This document shows positions 54,162 through 59,920 of a stretch of 64,000 nt of DNA, in pieces. The stretch is from assembly GCF_001536285.1 (NCBI RefSeq), contig NZ_FAOZ01000009.1, positions 62,001 through 126,000 on the forward strand, read 5' to 3'. The DNA is from Parafrankia irregularis. GTDB lineage: Bacteria > Actinomycetota > Actinomycetes > Frankiales > Frankiaceae. Made by a program: the position numbers and the translations under genes. Position 1 is the stretch's first letter. Each line of letters begins with the position of its first letter. Below the pieces are notes generated by a model, which was not told the DNA's origin, searched no databases, and saw only the letters and a list, made by a program, of their open reading frames with translations.

Positions 54162-54803
54162 TCATCGGGAGGCCGCGGGCACCGGTCCGTGGCTGTTGAC
54201 CACGCTGACGGTGCCCCCCGCGAGCTGGTAGGACAGGCCGACCACCGCACATCGTCCCGCGGCGACCTCGGTCGCGAGCAGGACTGACCGGCCGACCAGG
54301 CCGTCCACCGTCCGCCGGATGTGCGTGTGCACGAACGAGTCGATGTCGGTGTGCCCGGCTGCCCTCGCGGACAGCACGCTTGGCATGACCCGCTCGACGA
54401 GGTCCCCGATATAGCCCGCCGGCGCGCTCCCGTCCCGATCCGCCTCGGACGCCGCGGTGACGGCGCCACACGCGTCGTGTCCGAGAACGACGACGAGGGG
54501 CGCGCCGAGCACGCTCACGCCGTACTCGATGCTGCCGAGCACCTCGGGCCCCGCAACATGCCCGGCGGTCCGGACCACGAAGAGGTCTCCCAGCCCTCGA
54601 TCGAAGATGATCTCGGCTGCCAGCCGCGAATCGGAACATCCGAACAGCACGGCGAACGGCTGCTGCCTGGGCGCCACCGCCGATCGCCGGTCGGCGTCCT
54701 GGTTCGGGTGCAGCCGTTCGCCCCGCACAAAACGCGCGTTGCCTTCCTGCAGGACCGCGAGTGCCTCGGCAGGTGTGGAAACAGCAGGATCGAAATCGGA
54801 CAC
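54162..54803 (-). CDS. Beta-class carbonic anhydrase
   Basis: Interconverts CO2 and bicarbonate; 213 aa. Zinc ligands are Cys56 in GCSDSR, His109 and Cys112 in GHDACG, with the Asp58-Arg60 catalytic pair, all in place. RTAGHVAGPEVLGSIEYGV is the conserved dimer/active-site stretch. The GTG at 54803 is chosen because the family core starts soon after; the frame is open further upstream through noncoding sequence. It stands alone 36 bp after the kinase start on the same strand. Confidence 0.9.
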   Translation of the reverse strand: MSDFDPAVSTPAEALAVLQEGNARFVRGERLHPNQDADRRSAVAPRQQPFAVLFGCSDSRLAAEIIFDRGLGDLFVVRTAGHVAGPEVLGSIEYGVSVLGAPLVVVLGHDACGAVTAASEADRDGSAPAGYIGDLVERVMPSVLSARAAGHTDIDSFVHTHIRRTVDGLVGRSVLLATEVAAGRCAVVGLSYQLAGGTVSVVNSHGPVPAASR

Positions 54804-54919
54804 GGACAGCAACCTACCGCTGGTCCGGAGCGCGACGGGCCTGATTGCGGCAACGACACCCGGCGTCGCGGTACTGCCTCCCTGCCCGGTCTGCCTCCTC
54901 CTGGACCGGTCCGCCTCGG

Positions 54920-55002
54920 CTACTCGATCTTCTCCGGTTCGGCGAGGCCCGCCAGGGCGGCGCGGTCCTCCGCCAGGGCGTAACCGGCCTTGACGGTGCT
55001 GT
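54920..55002 (-). pseudogene. Relic of the 3' end of the hydrolase-like gene
   Basis: The minus strand encodes GYALAEDRAALAGLAEPEKI and a stop, close to GYALPEDRTALAAFAEPERV at the end of the gene at 59921-61594. Similarity ends abruptly after about 27 codons. The rest of the 290-bp gap between the carbonic anhydrase and kinase genes holds nothing else I can name. Confidence 0.8.
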
Positions 55003-55090
55003 ACGCACGAGCATCCACCCGAACGCGAGGCGGGCCCGATGACCTCGTGCCGGAGGGGCAGCGTCACGATCACCAGTAGGGTCCGTTGTG

Positions 55091-57334
55091 ATGGACGGTT
55101 CGAGGGGGCGTGCCGTGGACGTACCGGGCGTGGATCCGCTGGACGACGACGACCCGCGAACCGTCGGCCCGTACACGGTGTTGGGCCGTCTCGGTGGTGG
55201 CGGGATGGGCACGGTGTACCTGGCGCGCCGTGACGGGCAGAGCCCGCCCGTCGCGCTGAAGGTGATCCGCGGTGACCTCGCGCGGGTGCCCGAGTTCCGC
55301 GAGAGGTTCCTGCGCGAGGCGCACGCCGCGCAGCGGGTCGCGAGGTTCTGCACCGCGGAGGTGCTCGACGTCAGCGTGGACGGCCGGCGCCCCTACCTGG
55401 TCACCGAATTCATCGACGGCCCCGACCTGTCGACCGCGGTGCGGAAGCGGGGCCCGCTGCCGATCACGGAGCTGGAACGGCTCGCGGTGGCCGTCGCCTC
55501 GGCGCTGACCGCGATCCACGCCGCCGGCGTGGTCCACCGTGACCTCAAACCGGGCAACATCATGCTGTCGTCGTCCGGGGCGCGCGTCATCGACTTCGGC
55601 ATCGCCCGCGCCCTCGACGTGACGACGATGATGACCCAGGGCGGTATCGGCACACCGGCCTTCATGGCCCCCGAGCAGGCTCTCGGCCAGCCGGTGACGG
55701 CCGCGGCGGACGTCTACGCCTGGGGCGGCGTGCTCCTGTTCGCCGGTACGGGACGGCTGCCCTACGGTGAGGCACCCACGCCTGTGATCCTCTACCGCGC
55801 GGTCAACGAGGAACCGGACCTCACCGGCCTGGACGCGGGCCTGCGGCCCCTCGTCGAACGCGCCATGCGCAAGGACCCGGCCGAGCGCCCGACCGCACAC
55901 GACCTCTTCCTCGAACTGGTGGGCGGCCGCCCCACCCCCGCACCTGCCCTCGGGTCGACAGCGCCTGGGCCGTCCGTCACCGGGCCGCTGGTTCCGGAGC
56001 CGGCGGTTCTCGCGGCGTTCGACGAGACGCTGCCGGTCTCGGCGCCGCCGTCGTTACCAGGGCCGCCGCCTCGCCTGGTCCATCAGGGTGACCCGCCGTT
56101 CCGGGACGGTCCGCCCCATCAGGAATCGGATGACGTCCCGGTCCCAGTCCCGGTCCGCAGCCGTCGGTCCCGTGGTCGGCTGCTCGGGGCGTTGGCCTCG
56201 GCCGCGCTCGTCCTCACGCTCGTGGTCGTGCTCGCAGTCGTCCGGATGGGCGATGACGACACGGGGGGTGCGCGGGCCGAGACCCCGGGCGGAGCCACGG
56301 CGACCTCGGCGGCCTCCTCCTCGTCCGCTCCCGAAGCCTCGTCCATGTCTGATGTCTCCTGCGCCACCGGAGCGATCGTCGCGGAGGGATCCACCGCCCA
56401 GAAGAGCGCGATGGATCAGTGGATCACGAACTACCAGAACCACTGCTCGGGCGCGACGATCACCTACCAGCCCACCGGCTCGGGCTCCGGACGCGCGCGG
56501 TTCGCCGCCGCGCAGGTCGACTTCGCGGGCTCGGACTCGATGCTCGAGGGTGACCAGAAGCGCGGGGCCGACGCACGCTGCACGGATGGCGTCGCCGCGG
56601 AGCTTCCGATGGCCGTCACGCCGATCGCGATTGTCTACAACCTGCCCGGTGTGGACGGTCTGCGGCTGTCTCCCGCCACGCTCGCCGGGATCTTCTCCGG
56701 CCAGATCCTCGTCTGGAACGCATCGGAGATCTCCGCCGACAACCCCGGTGTGAAACTGCCCAACACGGCGATACAGGGTGTTCACCGCTCGGACAGTGGC
56801 GGCGTCACCGACACCCTGACAACGTTCCTGGACGCCGCCGCCGGGGACGCCTGGACGTACGGCTCGGGCGTGGACTGGGAGGCCCCCGGCGGTGTGGGGG
56901 CGAAAGGCAGCGACGGCCTCGCGGCGACCGTCAAGGGCACACCGAACTCCGTCGGCTATCTCGACCTGCGGTCCGCGGAGAGCGCGGGTCTTCAGACCGC
57001 GAGAATCGAGAACGGCGCCGGCAAGTTCACCGACGTCTCCACTGGCGGTGTGACGGAGGGCCTCAGCTCGGCGCGGATCACCGGCACCGGTGGTGATCTC
57101 AGCTTCGTGAACGACTACTCCGCCATGACGGCGGGCGCATACGCGATCTACCTGGTGACCTACGAGATCGTCTGTACCAGGGGGCTGGAGTTCTCCCAGA
57201 GCGCGCTGGTCAGGTCCTTCCTGACCTACGTCTCCTCCGCGGCAGGTCAGGGAGCGGCCGCCGCACTCGGCTACGCGCCGCTTCCCGAGGGTCTGCGAAG
57301 CGAGGTCCAGGCCGTGATCGACGGGATCACCTGA
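55091..57334 (+). CDS. Ser/Thr protein kinase fused to an extracellular PstS-like phosphate-binding domain
   Basis: A 747-aa receptor kinase. Kinase domain, 27-285: Gly-rich loop GRLGGGGMG, Lys57 in VALKVI, HRDLKPGN (149-156), DFG (168-170) and GTPAFMAPEQ, all intact. A Pro-rich juxtamembrane linker leads to one helix at about 363-386. Outside, from about 430, comes a PstS domain: AEGSTAQKSAMDQWITNYQN, TGSGSGRARFAAAQVDFAGS for phosphate contact, SDSGGVTDTLTTFL, and a normal C-terminus. Mycobacterial PknD is encoded near pstS genes; here the two functions are one polypeptide. Likely senses phosphate and signals inside by phosphorylation. Confidence 0.9.
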   Translation: MDGSRGRAVDVPGVDPLDDDDPRTVGPYTVLGRLGGGGMGTVYLARRDGQSPPVALKVIRGDLARVPEFRERFLREAHAAQRVARFCTAEVLDVSVDGRRPYLVTEFIDGPDLSTAVRKRGPLPITELERLAVAVASALTAIHAAGVVHRDLKPGNIMLSSSGARVIDFGIARALDVTTMMTQGGIGTPAFMAPEQALGQPVTAAADVYAWGGVLLFAGTGRLPYGEAPTPVILYRAVNEEPDLTGLDAGLRPLVERAMRKDPAERPTAHDLFLELVGGRPTPAPALGSTAPGPSVTGPLVPEPAVLAAFDETLPVSAPPSLPGPPPRLVHQGDPPFRDGPPHQESDDVPVPVPVRSRRSRGRLLGALASAALVLTLVVVLAVVRMGDDDTGGARAETPGGATATSAASSSSAPEASSMSDVSCATGAIVAEGSTAQKSAMDQWITNYQNHCSGATITYQPTGSGSGRARFAAAQVDFAGSDSMLEGDQKRGADARCTDGVAAELPMAVTPIAIVYNLPGVDGLRLSPATLAGIFSGQILVWNASEISADNPGVKLPNTAIQGVHRSDSGGVTDTLTTFLDAAAGDAWTYGSGVDWEAPGGVGAKGSDGLAATVKGTPNSVGYLDLRSAESAGLQTARIENGAGKFTDVSTGGVTEGLSSARITGTGGDLSFVNDYSAMTAGAYAIYLVTYEIVCTRGLEFSQSALVRSFLTYVSSAAGQGAAAALGYAPLPEGLRSEVQAVIDGIT

Positions 57335-57347
57335 TCCGGGGCCGGTG

Positions 57348-59507
57348 TCAGAGCTGGCCGGCCCACAGGTCGGGGCCGAAGACCTCGTACCGGATGTTCT
57401 CGGCGGGCACGCCGCGGCGGAGCAGGCTGGCCCGGACGTCCCGCATGAACGGCAGCGGTCCGCACAGGTAGGCCCGCACGCCGTCCGGGACCGGAAGCTT
57501 GTCGGCGTCGATCAGGCCGGCCTCGACCCCGGGCCCGGGCGCCTCGTCGCGCTGCTCGTACCAGGTCAGCTCCTCGAAACGGCGCAGCTGGCGGCCCAGC
57601 ATCCGCACCTCGTCGCGCACCGGGTGGGACCGCGGGGAATGGTCCGCGTGGGCGACGACGACGCGCCGGTCCGGCCGCGTACGGGTGACGTGGTCGAGCA
57701 TCGCGACCATCGGAGTGATCCCGATTCCGGCACTGACCAGCAGCAGCGGGTCGAAGCTGTCGTCGAGGACGACGTCCCCGAATGGCTGGCTCACGTCCAG
57801 CACCGTGCCGACATCGACGCTGTCGTGGATGAACGAGGAGACCGCCCCGTCCGGGTTGCCGTCCGATCCACGCACCCGGCGGACGGTCAGGCGCATCCCG
57901 GCCCGTCCGGGAGCTGTGGAGATGGTGTACTGCCGGGGCTGCCGTCGTCCGTCCGGAAGGTCGACGGCGACCGACACGTACTGCCCGGCCTGCCAGGGCG
58001 GTGCCGGCTGGCCGTCCGCGGGGAGCAGCAGCAGCGAGATGACGTCGGGCGTCTCATCGGTCCGGCGGATGACCTCCCAGGGGCGCCAGATGTGCCTCGG
58101 GTCCACCCCGGCTCGCTGGTAGACACGGGCTTCCTCGGCGATGAGCTGGCAGGCGAACAGCCAGTACACCTCGTCCCACGCGGCGGCGATCTCGGGTGTG
58201 ACGGCGTCGCCGAGCACGTCGCCCACGGCGGCGAGCAGGTTCCGGCCGACGATCGTGTACTGCTCGGGGAGCACCCCCAGGGAGGCGTGCTTGTGGGCGA
58301 TCCGCTCGAGCACGGGCTGGAACGACGGGGCCTGCGGGTCGATGAGCTGCGTGGCGTAGGCGACCACCGAGGCCGCCAGCGCCCGCCGCTGGTCGCCGTT
58401 GGCCTGGTTGCCCTGGTTGAACAGGCGCAACAGCTCGGGGTGCGCGGTGAACAGCCGCGGGTAGAACGCCGAAGTGATCTCGACGCTGTGGGCGGCGACG
58501 ACCGGGGCGGTGGCGCGCACGACAGCGGCCGATTCGATGGAGAGCACGAGTCGTCCTCCTGACCCGGTTCCGCCGGCTACGGAACCTGAGGGGGTGGATA
58601 GGTCCGGGATGGATGAGGGGAGAAGCCCGGACGGGATGGAGCCGTCTGCCCCAGGGCTGTCGAAGGCCGGCCCTGCTGACGGAGGGGGATCGAGGTGGGC
58701 GATGCACAGGTCTGGTTCGACGAACGGCACGACGCGCGGCACCAGCGGGCTGCCCAGTCGTTCGAGCAGGCCGGAGAGCAGGCCCGCGTGCACCGAGCAG
58801 ATGACGTCGGGGTGGACCGCTGCCACGGCCCGGAACGGGCAGGAGTGCAGCAGCATCCGCCGGCCCACTCCCGCGGTGCCCGGGGTACCCGGGGCGTCGG
58901 CTGGTTCGACTTCGGGGTCGAAGCCGAGTTCGGCGAACACCGCGGCCGCCTGGTCGATGGCGGTCGTCTGGTCGACCAGGCGTGCCTGTTCCGCGGGGCC
59001 GGAACCCGGCCGGGCGTCCGGTCCTTCGGCGGGGGCTGGCGCGGGTTTCTCGACCTGTCGGCTGGCCCAGGCCTGTCCGGCCTGGCGCGCGATCCGGGCA
59101 CGTTCGGCCGGGGTGGCGGCCAGGTTCTCCGCCAGCACGAACAGCAGCTGTTCGTGCTCGTAGCCGGCGCCGCCGTCGTCGTCGGCCGGGTCGCTGGCCG
59201 TCGCACCGGCGGCGACGGGTGAGTAGGTCACCCTCGGTCGGCCGGGGGCGGAACGGGGTTCCGGCCGTGCGCTGACCAGGCCGGCTCCGACCAGGACGTC
59301 CAGGTGGAAGCGCACGGTGGAGACGGCGAACCCGGTGGTCTCGGCGAGTTCCCGGGCGTCGAGCGGCCGGCCGGCCGCTCGCAGGGTGGCCAGCAGACCG
59401 AGCCGGCTGTCCGTGGCTAGCGCGCCGTGCCGCCGGGCCCGCCCGCCGCCCCCGGTGCCGGGCCCGGTGTCACCTGCCGGGCGGACGTGCCGCGGTTCCG
59501 GCTGCAT
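57348..59507 (-). CDS. HTH/Cys-rich regulator fused to flavohaemoglobin (NO dioxygenase)
   Basis: A 719-aa fusion. Residues 30-95 form a winged helix (RLGLLATLRAAGRPLDAREL, then FAVSTVRFHLDVLVGAGLVS). Residues about 215-270 carry Cys/His positions (HSCPFRAV, VICSVHAG, DLCIAHL) like SufR-type Fe-S regulators. After a Pro/Ser/Gly linker, residues 321-719 are a full flavohaemoglobin: globin with the proximal His region RIAHKHASLG, FAD site RQYTIS and NAD site GIGITPM. The ATG at 59507 follows GGGAGG. An internal GTG at 58547 has AGGAGG 7 bp upstream, so the enzyme may also be made alone. In related genomes I would expect two neighbouring genes; here there is no stop between them. Confidence 0.87.
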   Translation of the reverse strand: MQPEPRHVRPAGDTGPGTGGGGRARRHGALATDSRLGLLATLRAAGRPLDARELAETTGFAVSTVRFHLDVLVGAGLVSARPEPRSAPGRPRVTYSPVAAGATASDPADDDGGAGYEHEQLLFVLAENLAATPAERARIARQAGQAWASRQVEKPAPAPAEGPDARPGSGPAEQARLVDQTTAIDQAAAVFAELGFDPEVEPADAPGTPGTAGVGRRMLLHSCPFRAVAAVHPDVICSVHAGLLSGLLERLGSPLVPRVVPFVEPDLCIAHLDPPPSAGPAFDSPGADGSIPSGLLPSSIPDLSTPSGSVAGGTGSGGRLVLSIESAAVVRATAPVVAAHSVEITSAFYPRLFTAHPELLRLFNQGNQANGDQRRALAASVVAYATQLIDPQAPSFQPVLERIAHKHASLGVLPEQYTIVGRNLLAAVGDVLGDAVTPEIAAAWDEVYWLFACQLIAEEARVYQRAGVDPRHIWRPWEVIRRTDETPDVISLLLLPADGQPAPPWQAGQYVSVAVDLPDGRRQPRQYTISTAPGRAGMRLTVRRVRGSDGNPDGAVSSFIHDSVDVGTVLDVSQPFGDVVLDDSFDPLLLVSAGIGITPMVAMLDHVTRTRPDRRVVVAHADHSPRSHPVRDEVRMLGRQLRRFEELTWYEQRDEAPGPGVEAGLIDADKLPVPDGVRAYLCGPLPFMRDVRASLLRRGVPAENIRYEVFGPDLWAGQL
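58545..58560 (-). promoter_or_regulatory. Internal ribosome binding site and GTG start for flavohaemoglobin
   Basis: AGGAGG (58555-58560), a 7-nt spacer and GTG (58545-58547) lie in frame inside the fusion gene, exactly where the globin homology begins. This is the best Shine-Dalgarno match in the region and predicts a second, 399-aa product. Confidence 0.7.
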
Positions 59508-59558
59508 CCGAACCTCCCGATCTCGACCTTGTAGAAGTTCGATGTCGGGAGCATAAGC

Positions 59559-59572
59559 ACGAAGATATTCGT
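59559..59572. promoter_or_regulatory. Inverted repeat in the AT-rich promoter of the regulator-flavohaemoglobin gene
   Basis: ACGAA-GATA-TTCGT lies 52 bp upstream of the start in a stretch (59535-59610) much richer in A/T than the surroundings. It is a candidate operator for the HTH domain encoded downstream. Confidence 0.45.
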
Positions 59573-59723
59573 TTTTACTATCAGAGTCGTTTTTATGCAA
59601 TCCGTCACAGCCGCTGGACACGAAGTGCTGGGAACCCTTATAGGCTGGCGCGCGTGAGTGAACGCCGGATTCCCGGCCAACCGGACCACTGAGGAGACCG
59701 CTCAACGGTGGGTTGTGGGTTCT

Positions 59724-59758
59724 TCCTCAGCTGGGCACGCGGTGTGCCCAGCTGAGGA
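59724..59758 (-). terminator. Strong hairpin after the hydrolase-like gene
   Basis: A perfect 15-bp stem (TCCTCAGCTGGGCAC and its complement) with a 5-nt loop lies 160 bp past the stop at 59921. It is the only structured element in the 410-bp gap between the two minus-strand genes besides the promoter region. Confidence 0.6.
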
Positions 59759-59920
59759 GGACGAGATGCTGGTAGCGGCGGGCCGGGCAGCCGACTGGGG
59801 CCTTGCGCGCCGGGGCTCGGCAGGTCAGGCCGTGGTCGCGAGGGCCCGGTGGCCCTGCGAGGGGAGGGTCAGAACGAGGGCAGCCAGCCCGGTGAGGGTG
59901 ACGATGGACGTCCGTATTCC

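Follow-up and report, generated by a model that had tools for sequence, protein, structure and literature searches.

ArnR of Corynebacterium glutamicum (Cgl1185) is, according to the published account, encoded downstream of narKGHJI and represses both narKGHJI and hmp (PMC12343034). The protein binds a [4Fe-4S] cluster for which Cys179, Cys193 and Cys223 are needed, a spacing of X13 and X29, and the nitrosylated Corynebacterium protein leaves the hmp promoter DNA; the model in the same source has a TRAPPC3-like sensory fold, and a conserved histidine lies near the cysteines (PMC12343034).

The locus described here lies in a window of 64,000 nucleotides of DNA from Parafrankia irregularis, whose genome (G000) has 9,536,211 bases. 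As in the published description of C. glutamicum ArnR, a winged helix-turn-helix (wHTH) domain is followed by a C-terminal TRAPPC3-like sensory domain with three similarly spaced cysteines and a nearby histidine, a likeness that was judged from presumed Corynebacterium relatives and the published description, not from the C. glutamicum protein sequence itself. Whereas the C. glutamicum protein is, in that description, the product of a separate gene by narKGHJI, the regulator of the window is in frame with hmp, has its own operator-like repeat and belongs to a genome without a narG match; at E 1e-30 none was found in G000, G001, G004, G048 or G009, and the C. glutamicum control was positive.

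The locus can also be set beside several other systems. Like the flavohaemoglobins Hmp and FHP (PDB 1cqx, 1gvh, 3ozu), the protein matches over the full length of the globin, FAD and NAD parts, but translation from 59507 adds a regulator of 320 residues at its N-terminus. The nsrR-hmp pairs of Actinomycetes likewise have a gene of the NO-responsive repressor type next to hmp; their regulator, NsrR, is of the Rrf2 family, while the regulator found here is of another family and occupies the reading frame of hmp. A Pseudonocardia locus (L204) has the same order on the same strand, with a GTGA overlap that suggests a coupled regulator-enzyme pair, but there are two genes there and the enzyme is a distant globin-FAD-NAD protein rather than one of the close Hmp type. 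An enzyme is also joined to a transcription regulator in a restriction endonuclease-regulatory protein fusion reported in PMC3850674, which involves unrelated families and a different role. Among the matches listed, the open-licence literature held no link between ArnR and Frankia and no HTH-flavohaemoglobin fusion.

A single frame in two genomes

The frame and its enzyme half were delimited as follows.

57348..59507, minus strand: fused ArnR-Hmp open reading frame, 719 amino acids, calculated 76.2 kDa, open in Parafrankia sp. EUN1f too
57348..58547, minus strand: flavohaemoglobin Hmp, residues 321-719, about 44 kDa if produced on its own

A preliminary description of the sequence had claimed a single 720-codon frame, and translation of 57348-59507 on the minus strand bore this out: the frame is free of stops from the ATG at 59507 to the stop at 57348, and comprises 719 residues and the stop codon. 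The same description had raised the concern that a sequencing error near 58560-58700 might hide a stop or a frameshift. The identical frame is open in Parafrankia sp. EUN1f (G001), with 66 differences in 2160 nt (97% nucleotide identity) and no insertion or deletion, so that the same error would be needed in two assemblies. The second assembly makes a sequencing error unlikely, and it was ruled out as the main explanation.

The open frame by itself is weak evidence against chance. The class-wide sample consisted of 393 genomes, 104 of them with hmp, in which 106 of the 111 hmp places were read; at least 200 open codons preceded hmp in seven of these 106 frames, both Parafrankia ones included, and a 138-nt flank without stops in the hmp frame was seen at six of nine stand-alone hmp genes examined. 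A second conserved domain in the frame of hmp is not chance, and it was present, as a domain of the ArnR family, in the two Parafrankia members of the seven long frames only; the other five had no Pfam domain besides those of Hmp (E 0.001). The fusion is real and narrow in distribution, being seen in two of the 35 family genomes and two of the 106 hmp frames. Relatives, which the preliminary description had proposed to examine for two genes, do carry two genes in these same samples, and one frame occurs in G000 and G001 only, as far as the upstream side of hmp is visible (it is out of view in G016, G040 and G042).

The two halves of the protein

That the frame ends in a complete NO dioxygenase, as had been claimed, was borne out by Pfam, NCBIfam and full-length alignment to solved flavohaemoglobins. 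Pfam placed Globin at residues 347-450 and NAD_binding_1 at 590-692, and the NCBIfam model for NO-inducible flavohemoprotein matched residues 322-713 with an E value of 1.1e-108 and 364 bits, missing the model cut-off of 432 bits. Over about 395 residues the enzyme half matched 3ozu (E 4e-87) and 1cqx (E 8e-87), and the globin, FAD and NAD parts were all full length. Aligned with 1cqx and 3ozu, the enzyme half retains His, Tyr and Glu of the haem pocket, Tyr B10 and Gln E7, as well as the NAD loop and the RQY-S/T FAD motif; we take these residues to have their usual roles in Hmp. Judged from its sequence, the C-terminal half is a complete and ordinary Hmp.

The regulator half has the following parts.

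59274..59420, minus strand: winged HTH DNA-binding domain, residues 30-78 (Pfam HTH_20 1.8e-06, HTH_5 4.1e-06; wHTH chains in PDB structure comparison)
58686..59168, minus strand: ArnR-type sensory domain, residues 114-274 approximately (sensory-part HMM; TRAPPC3/Bet3-like fold)
58704..58841, minus strand: putative [4Fe-4S] ligands Cys223-X13-Cys237-X30-Cys268 and CxxH (His240), in conserved columns with ArnR spacing

The wHTH is ArsR-like by Pfam. An HMM made from ten Frankiaceae sequences, that of the window included, retrieved five proteins of genus g135 (E 4.6e-29 to 3.3e-23), which is presumed to be Corynebacterium from gene context among other signs. The genes of four of the five stand beside thrB, and two of these lie downstream of narG and narH with two open reading frames between; narI was confirmed at one of these two loci, and the fifth protein (L279) was without recognised thrB or nar context. 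This context is close to the place of arnR given in PMC12343034. To determine whether the HTH alone drove the match, an HMM of the sensory part only (nine rows) was run against 8274 open reading frames. Family members ranked first, followed by the five presumed Corynebacterium proteins (1e-10 to 1e-7) and by L076, with nothing else up to E 10, and the homology to the ArnR family thus extends past the HTH into the sensory domain.

The three cysteines and the histidine were invariant in a nine-row alignment (A1) and in 36 chosen rows (A3). Cysteines were screened in 42 family stretches, two of which were unusable because of an undetermined residue (L202) or a stop (L211); the spacing pattern was present in 39 of the 40 others, L247 being the one without it, and A3 omits L247 together with four stretches that bear the pattern (L224, L234, L244 and L262). 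The spacing in the five presumed Corynebacterium proteins is X13-14 and X26-31. The earlier label of a Cys-rich protein was loose wording for a half with three cysteines (223, 237 and 268), but the claim of probable Fe-S sensing gained support from the homology that places this half in the ArnR family.

An AF2 model of 259 residues of the regulator half (mean pLDDT 85.6) consists of a wHTH and a TRAPPC3/Bet3-like domain. The comparison with TRAPP/Bet3, MopR and PoxR sensor chains gave Z scores of about 11-13, and Foldseek gave an E value of only 4e-3 for TRAPPC3 (7yh3). The fold was taken from this model only, the Hmp half being poor in the model of the whole fusion (mean pLDDT 61.6; four homologues besides EUN1f). 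Two other identities were rejected: the SufR model TIGR02702 reached E 0.19 and 11.4 bits against a cut-off of 178.8, over the HTH part only (the relative L056 reached 23.7 bits), and for NsrR the Pfam search gave no Rrf2 domain match up to E 1.

Between the window and EUN1f the HTH and Cys domains differ by 7 synonymous changes and 1 non-synonymous change (P 0.0014 under neutrality), and the whole regulator half by 17 of each (P 0.0073), which indicates that this half is not decaying. Constraint is loose on residues 1-28 and 101-215 (10 synonymous, 16 non-synonymous). By homology the N-terminal half is an ArnR-family regulator, and it is a probable NO-sensing repressor.

Occurrence and neighbours in relatives

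At E 1e-10, 10 of the 35 family genomes contained the regulator half, a count that takes in distant relatives at 37-40% identity; the enzyme half was present in 16 at E 1e-40. At the cut-offs used, the genome of the window gave no ArnR-type match and no Hmp match other than the fusion.

An ArnR-like gene was divergent near hmp in two of the 106 frames (L062 and L076). Conversely, at least 5 of 100 ArnR-family loci had a flavohaemoglobin-like gene in the flank, a lower bound because the flanks were limited to about 1.5 kb for L178-L197 and to at most 6 kb for L198-L277. These five were EUN1f, Geodermatophilus, Blastococcus and two Pseudonocardia loci. In Geodermatophilus and Blastococcus a small gene on the opposite strand, seen by eye, lies between the regulator and the flavohaemoglobin-like gene. 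In Pseudonocardia the distant globin-FAD-NAD protein is encoded behind the arnR-type gene; the stop of the latter overlaps the GTG of the former at L204:2225-2228 (GTGA), and the two genes are about 100 nt apart in L201. In the five genus g6 genomes (L056, L057, L060, L061 and L283, the last being the same place as L058) the orthologue comes after a ferredoxin-like gene, behind the same operator-like repeat as in the window. In four of them the two genes overlap by ATGA, and in L056 the ferredoxin-like frame looks shortened.

An NsrR-type Rrf2 gene stood in tandem before hmp in 57 of the 106 frames, was divergent in 2, lay elsewhere in the stretch in 11 and was not seen in 36. The hmp genes closest to that of the window, in G004 and G048 (67% identity), have an NsrR-type gene 57 and 200 nt before them, and are the only ones in the family with this arrangement. 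At the 12 other family hmp genes, all of genus g5, neither NsrR nor ArnR was in view, the upstream side not being visible in three (contig ends limit the view in G016, G040 and G042), so that the replacement of NsrR rests on two genomes. These few genomes suggest that an ArnR-type regulator may have taken the place of NsrR at hmp, and that regulators of the two types could substitute for each other there. Both families occur at one locus of the same genus, L062:5563-8365 in G004, where a divergent ArnR-like gene is followed by an NsrR-type gene and then by hmp.

There were seven Rrf2 matches each in G000 and G001. None of three strong Rrf2 proteins from G000 and two from G001 was close to the hmp-linked NsrR (best E 2e-8); one G000 protein (C6) has three cysteines and was unmatched by the NsrR query.

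The region upstream of the frame

The preliminary description had guessed at an operator in 59535-59610, and by sequence this region does contain an operator-like footprint (59554-59595).

59572..59595, minus strand: operator-like repeat copy 1, TAAAAACGA-N6-AGTAAAAA, with 3 mismatches to TAAAAACGA-N6-TCGTGTAAA
59554..59577, minus strand: operator-like repeat copy 2, TAAAAACGA-N6-TCGTGCTTA, with 3 mismatches, common to g6 upstream regions
59514..59551, minus strand: imperfect dyad CTCCCGAnnTCGA-N12-TCGAnnTCGGGAG over the Shine-Dalgarno (SD) sequence of the fused frame, either an RNA hairpin or a dyad in the DNA, with its arms conserved in EUN1f

Copy 2 also occurs upstream of the arnR-type gene or operon in five genus g6 genomes. 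In five whole genomes the pattern TAAAAACGA-N6-TCGTGTAAA with at most 3 mismatches was confined to the stretch preceding the arnR-type gene or operon; G000 and G001 have two copies each, spaced by 18 nt, and G048, G050 and G010 have one, and the reversed pattern gave no match. A second pattern, with no mismatches allowed, was found once in each of seven genomes with an orthologue and in none of three same-genus genomes without one. The pattern was built from these loci, so that the known sites match by construction and the information lies in the absence of others. Neither the linker nor the region upstream of hmp in G048 contains a copy. For these reasons the repeat is linked to ArnR by position only; its position suggests autoregulation, and it is possible that it is a promoter element instead.

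The spacer of the dyad is 12 nt in the window and 14 nt in EUN1f. As RNA, the leader 59495-59600 has a better predicted fold than all but one of 200 shuffled versions (z -3.06). A scan of 58400-59900 for sigma-70-type promoters and terminators found none and was uninformative.

A proposed arnR-hmp unit

The locus is, on balance and by a narrow judgement, best read as an autoregulated arnR-hmp unit in which the regulator lacks its own stop and which would yield both a fusion and free Hmp. The mechanism is drawn from the homology to ArnR and from position. With the [4Fe-4S] cluster intact, the regulator half would repress its own promoter at the tandem repeats. Nitrosylation of the cluster by NO would lower repression, and the transcript would give two products, a 76-kDa ArnR-Hmp chain and a 44-kDa Hmp from an inner GTG, both of which would remove NO and so restore repression. 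Most likely, an ArnR-type regulator would first have arrived at the position occupied by NsrR in the closest relatives, and the fusion would have followed when this regulator, compactly arranged with hmp, lost its stop; the tether would be tolerated and is perhaps useful.

The regulator-hmp neighbourhoods in Geodermatophilus, Blastococcus and Pseudonocardia count for such a unit, as do the homology to the presumed Corynebacterium proteins, the ArnR-like Cys/His pattern and fold, the Hmp residues kept, the match of the inner start, the sole position of the repeat and the NsrR-type genes in tandem before hmp in 57 of 106 frames. On the other side stand the restriction of the fusion to two closely related genomes, the 12 family hmp genes with neither regulator in view, the absence of narG, the want of the Cys pattern in L247, the loose constraint on residues 1-28 and 101-215, and the possible promoter nature of the repeat. 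The one frame, the complete Hmp, the inner start and the probable Fe-S sensor of the preliminary description stand, while its coupling of NO removal to promoter control stays a proposal.

The joint between the halves

The stretch that joins the halves has the following parts.

58548..58685, minus strand: linker, residues 275-320, with predicted disorder and a codon use like that of non-coding DNA, yet conserved in both genomes
58555..58560, minus strand: inner Shine-Dalgarno AGGAGG, 7 nt before GTG, with a chance of about 0.0013 for one given codon
58545..58547, minus strand: inner GTG start, codon 321, at the position of the inferred stand-alone Hmp start

The AGGAGG-N7-GTG of the preliminary description is present and coincides with the inferred start of a stand-alone Hmp. 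Nine of the 15 stand-alone loci tried yielded a start motif; in each of these the inner GTG corresponds to the inferred start, which is preceded by a purine-rich, SD-like stretch. Folding predicts pairing of the long-frame SD in a transcript that includes 59560, and of most of the inner SD as well, so that the relative use of the two starts is not predictable; both pairings count against the proposed unit.

The linker is rich in Ser, Gly and Pro, and residues 281-352 have pLDDT below 50 in the whole-fusion model, in which the Hmp half is poor in general. GC at the three codon positions is 0.67/0.76/0.65 over residues 275-320, against 0.83/0.59/0.86 and 0.76/0.47/0.93 in the flanks. None of 604 overlapping 34-codon windows in the flanking halves was as low as the linker in the codon measure; the codon table, partly trained on the Hmp half, favours Hmp windows, and the GC3-GC2 measure, which is free of that, again gave 0 of 604. 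Non-coding codon use counts against the proposed unit, since little of the long product may be made.

Residues 275-320 differ from EUN1f at 2 of 138 nt where 8.8 differences were expected at the fourfold rate (P 0.0076; P 0.21 against the gene mean). Residues 287-320, a window picked after the data had been seen, have no differences in 102 nt against 6.5 expected (P 0.0016; gene mean P 0.044). The longest identical run in the frame (158 nt) was rejected as striking in itself, being unremarkable against the gene mean (P 0.35), and the RNA structure of the linker was no better than that of shuffles (z 0.43 and -0.17). The linker looks like a former untranslated region of conserved function that is now translated, and its predicted disorder and non-coding-like codon use are no harder to reconcile with a lost stop codon than with a fusion favoured by selection.

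The same observations lend themselves to a second reading, possible though unlikely, in which there are functionally two proteins: free Hmp from the inner start, and possibly from an inner promoter, and a long product that is short-lived or cleaved, the missing stop being near-neutral. The disordered stretch with its non-coding codon use, the strong SD sequence kept by hmp, the predicted pairing of the long-frame SD and the unchanged 102 nt, as would be expected of a regulatory stretch, all agree with it. Against it, there is no stop between the halves, so that any ribosome initiating at 59507 will make the fusion unless it drops off on the way; the purifying selection on the HTH and Cys domains implies that a regulator product is maintained, for which the stop codon of Hmp is the only one; and most of the inner SD is itself predicted to be paired.

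A further proposal, which we hold to be rather improbable, is a one-component NO switch, a putative [4Fe-4S] repressor carrying its own NO dioxygenase, in which local enzyme activity, and with it O2 and NADH, would set the release from DNA and the recovery, and free Hmp from the inner start would serve bulk detoxification. If true, haem, FAD and Fe-S would be held by one gene. Marginally more doubtful still is a single-chain sensor-enzyme maintained by selection, in which the tethered Hmp would clear NO at the cluster and so set the threshold or speed of re-repression. The frame is kept in both genomes with the fusion, the Ser/Gly/Pro-rich linker shows no non-synonymous change between them, and the fusion is the sole match of either kind in its genome at the cut-offs used; the two linker differences are, however, too few to establish selection at the protein level (P 0.096), and the non-coding codon use and narrow distribution speak against it.

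That the regulator half senses another signal (a metal, O2 or general Fe-S status) and hmp is carried along is very improbable, for although the wHTH is ArsR-like, narG is absent, the g6 relatives follow a ferredoxin-like gene rather than hmp and the at least 5 of 100 loci with an hmp-like flanking gene can be counted as few, the Cys/His pattern and fold are of the ArnR type, the SufR model was not reached and hmp or globin-reductase neighbours occur in several genera.

The proposed arnR-hmp unit places both an operator footprint and a prediction of two products at one locus, and the fusion, if made, is a natural construct for asking whether a transcription switch behaves differently when the scavenger is tethered to its sensor. 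The finding ties an ArnR-family repressor to hmp in Frankia-type actinobacteria, soil bacteria that live with plants, in which NO is a defence and signal molecule. PMC6624747 likewise presents NO as a defence and signal molecule in the life of Frankia with plants, and it lists hmpX for Parafrankia strain R43.

Two further genes were noted beside the frame. A Ser/Thr protein kinase fused to a PBP-superfamily domain (Pfam Pkinase and PBP_like_2) is encoded at 55088-57334 on the plus strand, convergent with hmp, and a carbonic anhydrase domain (Pro_CA) at 54165-55073 on the minus strand.
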